Below are positions 49,203 through 50,758 of a stretch of 64,000 nucleotides of DNA, piece after piece. Location: NCBI RefSeq assembly GCF_002224225.1, contig NZ_NJGG01000001.1, forward strand, positions 186,001 to 250,000, given 5' to 3'. The stretch is from Polynucleobacter cosmopolitanus (GTDB taxonomy: Bacteria; Pseudomonadota; Gammaproteobacteria; Burkholderiales; Burkholderiaceae). Numbering within the stretch: the stretch's first letter is position 1; each line of letters opens with the position of its first letter. The notes beneath the pieces were generated by a model. The model was not told the DNA's origin. It saw nothing but the letters and a program-made list of their open reading frames with translations, and made no database searches. The translations under genes and the position numbers were made by a program.

Positions 49203-49631
49203 TTAGATCTCAAGAACGCTTGGCTGTTGAGCCGCGTGTGGGTGGTCAGCTTCTGCATAAACTTTCAATTTCTTGATCATTGCATAGCCAAGTGGGCCTT
49301 TAGGCAACATGCCCTTAACAGCCTTCTCGAGAGCACGACCAGGGAAACGAGCTTGCATCTTGTCGAAGTTAGTTTCGTAGATGCCGCCAGGATAGCCACT
49401 GTGCGTGTAGTATTTTTTATTCAAGCCCTTAGTGCCAGTCACGCGCAACTTAGAAGCATTGATGATGACGATAAAGTCGCCTGTATCAACGTGGGGGGTG
49501 AATTCTGGCTTGTGCTTGCCGCGTAGACGGTGTGCCACTTCACTGGCGACACGACCGAGGACTTTGTCCGTAGCGTCAATCACGAACCACTCGCGCTTCA
49601 CCTCATGCGGTTTTGCTGAGAAAGTTTTCAT
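49203..49631 (-). CDS. rplM: 50S ribosomal protein L13
   Basis: Ribosomal protein uL13 (142 residues): [52 protein letters not shown] and [15 protein letters not shown]. It is the first gene of rplM-rpsI. The upstream 373-base gap to the next gene holds a hairpin and T-tract 144 bases before its ATG (see ncRNA entry) and a TACAAT -10-like hexamer at 49767-49772, which may be its promoter. Confidence 0.99.
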
Positions 49632-49774
49632 GATTACCTTAAATTGTTAAGCCCTAAAAACAACCATTTCATCATCCCTTTGGCTCCGCTTATGTTTGCA
49701 GGCTCGCAGTTCAAAATTAACAGCTGGTACAGCATTTCCCTAATGGGCAAACTAGGAAAGCCTTAAATTGTAGC

Positions 49775-49840
49775 AAAAAAAAACCCAGGAAGCTAATTCC
49801 TGGGCTGAAATCCACCTTTCATGAGGGTGGAGGAGACAAG
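49775..49840 (-). ncRNA. Candidate small RNA or rplM leader attenuator
   Basis: In a 373-base gene-free gap (49632-50004), the minus strand has a sigma70-like promoter followed by about 65 bases with two stems: TCCACC/GGTGGA (49811-49831) and CCCAGGAA-ttagc-TTCCTGGG (49784-49804), then nine T residues. The 5' end carries CTCCTCCACC, which resembles an anti-Shine-Dalgarno sequence. It is either an independent small RNA or the prematurely terminated leader of the downstream rplM-rpsI operon. The rest of the gap shows no gene. Confidence 0.5.
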
Positions 49841-49845
49841 TCGTT

Positions 49846-49885
49846 ATTTTATAAAAATCTCGAGAATTTGGCAATAATTTCTCGA
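49846..49885 (-). promoter_or_regulatory. Promoter of the candidate RNA with inverted repeat over the -35
   Basis: On the minus strand TTGCCA (plus 49869-49874) is 17 bases from TAAAAT (49846-49851). The -35 is enclosed by the inverted repeat TCGAGAA/TTCTCGA (49860-49866 and 49879-49885), a possible operator. Predicted only. Confidence 0.5.
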
Positions 49886-50004: not shown

Positions 50005-50427
50005 ATGCAAGCAACGATTAAATGGCTGGGTAAAGATGGTATGGCTTTTAGTGCTGAAACTGGCAGTGGCCACCTGGTAAATATGGATGGAGCACCTGAG
50101 GCTGGTGGCAAAAACCTCGCCCCACGCCCAATGGAAATGATGTTGGTTGGAGCCGGAGGATGCACTTGTTTTGATGTGGTGATGATTCTTAAACGAGCCA
50201 GGCAAGATATCCAAGATTGCAAAGTTGAATTGCAAGCCGAGAGGGCAGCAGAAGATCCTAAGATTTTCACTAAAATTCACATGAAATTTACCGTGATTGG
50301 TAAAAATCTAGACAGAAGTCGTGTTGAAAAGGCTGTTGAGCTCTCGCATGACAAGTATTGCTCAGCAACCATCATGCTCGGTAAAACAGCAGAAATCACT
50401 CACAGTATTGAGTTGATCGAATTGTGA
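50005..50427 (+). CDS. OsmC/YhfA-family protein
   Basis: A 140-residue OsmC-like protein; some relatives reduce organic hydroperoxides with a two-cysteine mechanism. Here RPMEMMLVGAGGCTCFDV contains Cys53 and Cys55, and SHDKYCSATIML holds Cys119. This cysteine spacing matches the family pattern of one cysteine before the central helix and one in the YCS segment. Peroxidase activity is not shown and the YhfA subgroup is of unknown function. The gene is plus strand and converges on rnpB. Confidence 0.85.
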   Translation: MQATIKWLGKDGMAFSAETGSGHLVNMDGAPEAGGKNLAPRPMEMMLVGAGGCTCFDVVMILKRARQDIQDCKVELQAERAAEDPKIFTKIHMKFTVIGKNLDRSRVEKAVELSHDKYCSATIMLGKTAEITHSIELIEL

Positions 50428-50439
50428 TCAATTCAATTA

Positions 50440-50758
50440 AAAAGTGCAGAGCCGGCTATTAAGCCGGATTCTGTCGCCCGCATTTTCATGCAGGGGCAAC
50501 CATTCATCTAGTTTCACCGTTACCAGTGAAATCAAGCTCCCTACCCGCAAGCTCAGCGGACCGCCTCAACGCTTGCCTATTTGGGATTGCTCCGAGTGGA
50601 GGTTACCGCGTTTCACCGTAACTAAATACGCTCGTCTCTGTGGCCCTATTCCTCACGTCACCGTGGATGGCTGTTAGCCATCACCCTGTCCTATGGAGTC
50701 CGGACTTTCCTCCCCCTTGTTACCAAGGCAGCGGTTGCCTTACCGACTCTGCCCCGCT
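50440..50758 (-). ncRNA. rnpB: RNase P RNA (class A)
   Basis: The catalytic RNA that removes tRNA 5' leaders. On the minus strand the P1 5' strand GGGGCAGAG is followed by the conserved GAGGAAAGTCCGGAC, then AGGGTGATGGC, the GTGAAACGCGGTAACC segment, AGCAATCCCAAATAGG, AGATGAATGG and the 3' landmark ACAGAATCCGGCTTA, and the P1 3' strand CTCTGC. The 5' end lies within about five bases of the pyrC stop. A CCGGCT-TAAT-AGCCGG hairpin and a short T-run mark the end. Ends are approximate. Confidence 0.95.

Follow-up and report, generated by a model that had tools for sequence, protein, structure and literature searches.

A predicted RF02278-family small RNA with an anti-Shine-Dalgarno 5′ end upstream of rplM in Polynucleobacter and other Burkholderiales

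The Rfam family RF02278, "Betaproteobacteria toxic small RNA" (other label "double-hairpin RNA"), is the family of the Burkholderia cenocepacia small RNAs ncS03, ncS05, ncS27 and ncS62, and owes its name to the growth inhibition seen upon expression in E. coli (Kimelman 2012, as cited in PMC4603805 and PMC5688073). In B. cenocepacia, the family members are short separate transcripts, as detected by dRNA-Seq and Northern blotting (PMC4603805, PMC5688073), and expression of homologs is also reported in PMC7011215. ncS27 becomes more abundant in biofilm, in stationary phase, under starvation and in glucose medium (PMC5688073), its overexpression attenuates growth while an antisense of its CU-rich end acts oppositely (PMC5688073, PMC4603805), and its targets belong to amino-acid and carbohydrate transport and catabolism (PMC10987360). 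Bordetella S17, a related RNA, acts as a repressor on a reporter target and is co-precipitated with Hfq, and the exponential growth of E. coli is unimpaired by it (PMC11722255).

The DNA analyzed here, referred to as the window, is a stretch of 64,000 nt from Polynucleobacter cosmopolitanus (contig NZ_NJGG01000001.1, positions 186,001 to 250,000). Positions 49838–49775 on the minus strand of the window matched RF02278 over its full length (1–64) at a score of 52.2 bits (threshold 50), and by this match the predicted RNA is a member of an already known small RNA (sRNA) family. The features of the locus are as follows.

49869–49874, minus strand: putative −35 box of the sRNA promoter, TTGCCA, by consensus match
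49846–49851, minus strand: putative −10 box of the sRNA promoter, TAAAAT, 7 nt ahead of the Rfam start
49775–49838, minus strand: RF02278 sRNA of 64 nt, probable ncS27 ortholog, by Rfam match and conservation
49829–49838, minus strand: 5′ anti-Shine-Dalgarno arm UGUCUCCUCC, nt 1–7 unpaired and nt 8–10 within hairpin P1
49811–49831, minus strand: hairpin P1, UCCACC (49831–49826) pairing with GGUGGA (49816–49811), loop without a second CUCCUC
49775–49806, minus strand: intrinsic terminator, hairpin 49806–49782 and nine-T tract 49783–49775, by pattern, fold and covariation
49767–49775, minus strand: putative extended −10 of rplM, TGCTACAAT, its first base being the final T of the sRNA terminator
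49632–49766, minus strand: rplM 5′ leader, with a possible pseudoknot between loop GCCC (49748–49745) and GGGC (49654–49651)
49203–49631, minus strand: rplM, 50S ribosomal protein L13 (TIGR01066, 199.4 bits)
50005–50427, plus strand: OsmC family protein, divergent, conserved upstream neighbour (NF008009, 151.3 bits)

The first-pass annotation had described a minus-strand promoter driving an RNA of about 65 bases with an anti-Shine-Dalgarno-like 5′ end, a short stem, and a GC-rich stem followed by nine T residues, and all of these were seen again. The putative promoter matches the consensus at 10 of 12 positions with a 17-nt spacer, and the RNA runs for 64 nt from 49838 on the minus strand with UGUCUCCUCCACC as its 5′ end; in the minus-strand reading of region 50300–49300, the 64-nt stretch starts with TGTCTCCTCCACC. 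The terminator stem, given earlier as 8 bp, has 10 bp with an 8-bp core (CCCAGGAA/TTCCTGGG), the second short stem lies 5′ of it with 6 bp, and rplM follows in the same direction as claimed, its ATG at 49631 lying 143 nt past the RNA 3′ end. The fold of the RNA has a predicted energy of −23.4 kcal/mol (z −3.64), which was equaled by none of 200 shuffles. In the 2.5 kb scanned, promoter patterns (6 found, 3.3 expected) and terminator patterns (4 found, 2.5 expected) occurred near chance levels, so the argument must rest on conservation, and the element stands above chance because of the Rfam match (E 1.3e-7 for the whole window) together with that conservation. An RNase P RNA of bacterial class A (239.2 bits) was also identified at 50444–50750 on the minus strand.

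Like RF02278, the window RNA has the CU-rich 5′ anti-Shine-Dalgarno arm and two hairpins, P1 and an intrinsic terminator that ends in a U-tract. A second CU-rich box, typical of the P1 loop in this family, was not found in the window copy; this box belongs to the RF02278 consensus and is not Rfam's criterion of membership. The score of the window copy is low compared with that of the best members (52.2 vs 84.1 bits), and the low scores of the genus copies are plausibly due to the P1 loop without the second CUCCUC. Our own covariance model, R1, gave the window copy 68.9 bits, the window being one of its 44 model-building sequences. The next RF02278 match elsewhere in the same genome was weak (30.1 bits) and fell in the 3′ UTR of a phasin-like gene, and 13 of 14 unrelated control genomes likewise gave weak matches at E ≤ 10, all of them under the cut-off.

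Within the genus, RF02278 was matched at E ≤ 0.01 in 73 of 81 genomes, with 53 above the family cut-off, and rplM adjoined the fetched match in 70 of the 73. The three other cases were a match at a contig edge (L014) and two genomes, G032 and G057, with a phasin 3′-UTR type only; G032 is 99% complete and yielded no rplM-linked copy. No match was found in eight of the 81 genomes, six of which are less than 90% complete, the others being 90% (G055) and 98% (G068) complete. The arm UGUCUCCUCC was invariant in all 69 rplM-linked genus copies fetched and uncut by a contig end, and across these sequences (effective number about 24) the weighted mean column identity was 0.91 for RNA nt 1–31 and 0.79 for the terminator, compared to 0.57–0.58 in the 110 nt upstream. 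One further rplM-linked copy (L078) is cut at a contig end by an adaptor-like stretch, AGATGTGTATAAGAGACAG, presumably a sequencing adaptor and thus an assembly artefact.

Two other types of copy were observed in the genus. In eight genomes, the 3′ UTR of the phasin-like gene, which was named by eye, carries UGUCUCCUCGG and a terminator (L002 1501–1574 on the minus strand, L080, L082–L087), and this sequence could possibly give rise to a 3′-UTR-derived sRNA with the same seed. Two genomes contain a further RF02278-like copy starting with AGTCTCCTCCATAT (L079 873–926, L081 937–992), with no rplM link in the fetched stretch.

The first-pass annotation had proposed covariation analysis across Polynucleobacter and Burkholderiales as a check, and in an alignment of 44 diverse rplM-linked copies the terminator helix covaried strongly, with two-sided changes at 8 of its 10 pairs. 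Hairpin P1, whose sequence is mostly fixed, was paired in 97.3% of cells, and 2 of its 6 pairs showed two-sided changes. Overall, 90.8% of pair cells were standard, and the covariation score was reached by none of 500 shuffles and lay above all slid controls. The motif TCTCCTCC was kept in all 44 copies. A chance match among the 97 "linked" sequences (L142 2469–2545) was left out of this alignment and of the loop-box count. In that count, CUCCUC was absent from nt 11–24 of all 69 genus copies, four of which keep CUCC, and was present in nt 11–26 of 49 of 58 distinct rplM-linked copies from outside the genus, with eight showing CUCC only and one neither; not among the 58 are L233, with AATCTCC as its start, and six Polynucleobacter loci that are named or genus-like. 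Judged from these alignments, Polynucleobacter keeps a one-box form in which the second anti-Shine-Dalgarno box is lost.

The family, and its place next to rplM, extends well beyond the genus. At E ≤ 0.001, RF02278 was matched in 139 of 150 family-level genomes (136 above the cut-off), with 8 of the 11 misses in genomes of at most 1.2 Mb, and in 125 of 200 order-level genomes (74 above the cut-off). Among the matches listed, 50 of 88 order-level genomes, representing 18 of 25 families, have the sRNA ahead of rplM in the same orientation, at distances of 71–1019 nt (median 163.5); the 88 genomes are the overlap between 150 listed RNA matches and 150 listed rplM matches. In named rplM loci, TCTCCTCC was found within 700 nt upstream of the gene in 45 of 80, at least three of the loci having less than 700 nt of sequence, and a relative of the window OsmC gene was present in 70 of 80. 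Of nine loci examined, four with Burkholderia names and one from a Paraburkholderia MAG carry the motif farther out, at 709–992 nt. In Burkholderia aenigmatica (L180), the sRNA lies 724 nt upstream of rplM, or about 650 nt when counted from the RNA end, with OsmC beyond it.

This arrangement can be set beside that of ncS27. The B. cenocepacia gene BCAL3348 we take to be rplM. It appears in a list of ribosomal protein genes whose 5′ UTRs are short (PMC5688073), and ncS27 sits between BCAL3348a and BCAL3349 on the complement strand (PMC4603805, Table 3). The window RNA is a probable ortholog of ncS27, as suggested by the order OsmC, sRNA, rplM, which matches the place of ncS27; family and neighbourhood are the same, with B. 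aenigmatica as the relative through which they were compared. ncS27 itself is 92 nt long and can be processed to a short form (PMC5688073), whereas the −10 box of the window copy puts its start at the 5′ end of that short form. In Bordetella pertussis, the processed 67-nt form of S17 has a closely similar 5′ end, but S17 is encoded between BP3151 and coq7, not by rplM, and its precursor is about 190 nt (PMC11722255). Membership in the family, conservation, structure and synteny of the sRNA are computational observations. No paper joining rplM, a small RNA, Burkholderiales and the upstream position was found in the literature covered here, and the widespread rplM synteny, the one-box genus form and the dyad described below, all predicted computationally, were likewise not found there.

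Two readings of the locus had been offered initially, a stand-alone regulatory RNA and a terminated leader of rplM-rpsI. The first is upheld by the RF02278 match, the conservation in the genus and the expression of homologs in Burkholderia, and we favour, with a probability of roughly 0.82, a stand-alone, trans-acting RF02278 sRNA of about 64 nt that has its own promoter and terminator and would block the ribosome-binding sites of uptake and catabolic genes. A variant adds a cis effect of this sRNA on rplM: in Polynucleobacter, the DNA of its terminator would serve as the −35/spacer region of the rplM promoter, and transcription of the sRNA, or read-through from it, would modulate rplM. This variant draws on the junction between the sRNA and rplM units, which abut, the final T of the sRNA terminator being also the opening T of the putative extended −10 TGCTACAAT, and this tight junction between T-tract and −10 holds across the genus copies. 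We consider this variant improbable, given that in most of the outside relatives fetched the sRNA is farther from rplM, the −10 box lying tens to hundreds of bases off.

The terminated leader, in which transcripts would start at the upstream promoter, usually stop at the hairpin and otherwise run on into rplM under L13 or growth-rate control, appears very unlikely. It would account for the common direction, the 143-nt spacing and, among the matches listed, the rplM-upstream position in 18 of 25 families. An attenuator would be placed within the 5′ UTR of its operon, but judging from the sequence the −10 box of rplM follows the element: each of the 70 genus loci (66 distinct leaders) has TACAAT, TATAAT or TAGAAT a short way past the T-tract, window positions 49774–49760 are conserved at 0.82, and a structured leader lies downstream of the sRNA terminator. 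The leader of named relatives begins in a similar way behind a −10 box (for instance TATAAT), and the sRNA lies tens to hundreds of bases before it. Nor is the association with the gene a fixed one, as 43 of the 59 top family- and order-level RF02278 loci have no rplM within about 1.5 kb; where it is present, its distance spans 71–1019 nt among the matches listed, with the approximately 650 nt of B. aenigmatica as an example. In Duganella (L213) and Janthinobacterium (L254), TCTCCTC was not found on either strand in 2.5 kb upstream, yet the rplM −10 box and leader are retained. The attenuator reading was rejected on this conserved downstream promoter and the synteny evidence; some read-through from the sRNA into rplM is possible. 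A mere intrinsic terminator or conserved DNA site without functional RNA, which the near-chance pattern counts would permit, can be practically dismissed, since the most conserved element is the 5′ arm, outside the terminator, and homologs are expressed (PMC4603805, PMC5688073, PMC7011215).

The actual rplM leader may itself be a regulatory element. Each of the 66 distinct genus leaders has a 5′ hairpin whose loop is complementary to a stretch some 18–30 nt ahead of the start codon, and all 13 loop/tail types, which were picked by our own patterns, keep at least four Watson–Crick pairs (for example AGTCA/TGACT, GGTCA/TGACC, AGCCA/TGGCT, TTGTCA/TGACAA and AGTCC/GGACT, with GCCC/GGGC in the window). 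In an alignment of 65 of these leaders, from which one with an internal duplication (L034) was dropped, the pseudoknot helix was 94.0% paired with 20 two-sided cells, 8 gapped rows not being counted, and the covariation score of the three-helix structure was reached by none of 500 shuffles. The number of pairs with two-sided changes (4) was reached by 164 of 500 shuffles, and slid controls gave 4 in one case and 5 in another. Other matching pairs, among them CGCTCA/TGAGCG, TGCCC/GGGCA and TACCCG/CGGGTA, are seen in many named relatives; of the leaders in that comparison, 88 of 110 were anchored by a crude rule and 22 skipped, and some anchored rows have nothing beyond chance matches or no match at all. 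Related loci with such leaders include L022, L050, L064, L074, L180, L201 and L254. The plain minimum free energy of the window leader was no better than that of shuffles (z 0.22), an alifold consensus fold of mixed-family rplM leaders gave no structure, Rfam 15, searched up to E 10, gave no match overlapping the window leader, and "rplM" was not found in the main text of structured-RNA surveys naming Polynucleobacter. In E. coli, rplM is autoregulated by uL13 via a long structured 5′ UTR (PMC10931766), which makes a uL13 operator the obvious guess. The operon downstream, rplM-rpsI, is the same, and although the sRNA itself is not that leader, the window leader (49766–49632) may be its analogue, with the pseudoknot as a candidate uL13 autoregulatory element in Polynucleobacter and other Burkholderiales.

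Upstream of the sRNA, a single conserved promoter for the genus was not found among the 69 copies. The window type, TTGnnn-N17-TA(A/T)AAT, was present in 3 of 69 and a dyad core, TCTTRTAYAAGA, in 42, with neither in the remaining 24, of which at least three (L033, L043 and L044) show an imperfect dyad. The 16-bp palindrome AGTCTTRTAYAAGACT occurred at 24 places in 21 of 41 genomes, 19 of them at the sRNA, with no match for the reversed control and none in the window's own genome. Of the five places away from the sRNA, three were read: two precede acnB, and the third precedes isocitrate lyase (aceA; L417, above the model cut-off). The first acnB (L399) was identified by model scan, below the cut-off as the gene is cut by the stretch, and the second (L412) was named by its near-identical start. 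Given this shared dyad, the main-clade sRNA may be under a regulator of TCA/glyoxylate genes. A bolder view, which we regard as doubtful, is that the rplM-linked copy is the family ancestor and its linkage functional, an sRNA silencing carbon uptake being retained next to the L13-S9 operon so that nutrient-starvation signals act on transporters and ribosome synthesis alike, with the Polynucleobacter terminator as rplM promoter DNA and an operator shared with acnB/aceA in the main clade.

Returning to the stand-alone, trans-acting sRNA, we infer its transcription, Hfq dependence, targets and physiological role from ncS27 and S17. The RNA would have a promoter and a terminator of its own, its U-tail being a probable Hfq handle; the 5′ end UGUCUCCUCC would pair with ribosome-binding sites of the GGAG(A)CA type and block translation. 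Organic-acid substrate-binding proteins and catabolic enzymes would be likely targets, and uptake would be slowed when carbon or amino acids run short. The sRNA 5′ end is the reverse complement of GGAGGAGACA, and GGAGACA-N2-12-ATG occurs at 30 sites in the window's genome compared to 8 for a reversed control, 16 of the 30 starting an open reading frame of at least 60 aa. By Pfam/NCBIfam, these frames encode the transport proteins DctP, NMT1_3 (TAXI-like) and a TupA-like protein (below the model cut-off), along with methylmalonate-semialdehyde dehydrogenase, 3-hydroxyacyl-CoA dehydrogenase, FAA hydrolase, glutathione peroxidase, a zinc-type dehydrogenase and a 2-hydroxyacid dehydrogenase; two (L283, L300) gave no Pfam family. 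Sites named by eye were at ssb, clpP, a Bug-type binding protein (no NCBIfam match at the limit used), a RodZ-like protein and an internal nuoF position. This set resembles the transport and catabolism profile of the relatives' targets.

At start codons across 41 genomes, GGAGACA was not enriched over one permuted control, GGAGCAA, which was found 1162 times compared to 1001 for GGAGACA, with 509 for GGAGAAC (reversed controls of the three motifs: 224, 232 and 748). The sRNA 5′ arm paired no better than shuffled arms, 49 of 200 being as good, in every third of 377 start regions chosen by a crude rule of our own. The mmsA site was kept in 6 of 6 copies of more than 90% identity, its own included, and in 0 of 24 at 64–66%. 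For dctP, six copies above 92%, its own among them, all have GGAGAC, and three of these have the exact GGAGACA, which was found in none of five copies at about 70%; this count omits 19 more distant dctP-like loci. As a permuted motif is as frequent, the arm behaves like its shuffles and site conservation is confined to close relatives, no strong target claim is made, and the list is one of candidates. That GGAGACA is the usual ribosome-binding site of the genus, as expected from Burkholderia, was rejected separately, with 1 of the 377 start regions carrying it in a 464-kb sample.

With this assignment, a spacer becomes a named sRNA in a freshwater genus, tying Polynucleobacter to the experiments done with ncS27 and S17, and the place upstream of rplM appears as a widely shared home of the RF02278 family. 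The dyad common to the sRNA, acnB and aceA suggests a testable input, and the one-box form of the genus would provide a natural experiment on which anti-Shine-Dalgarno box does the work.
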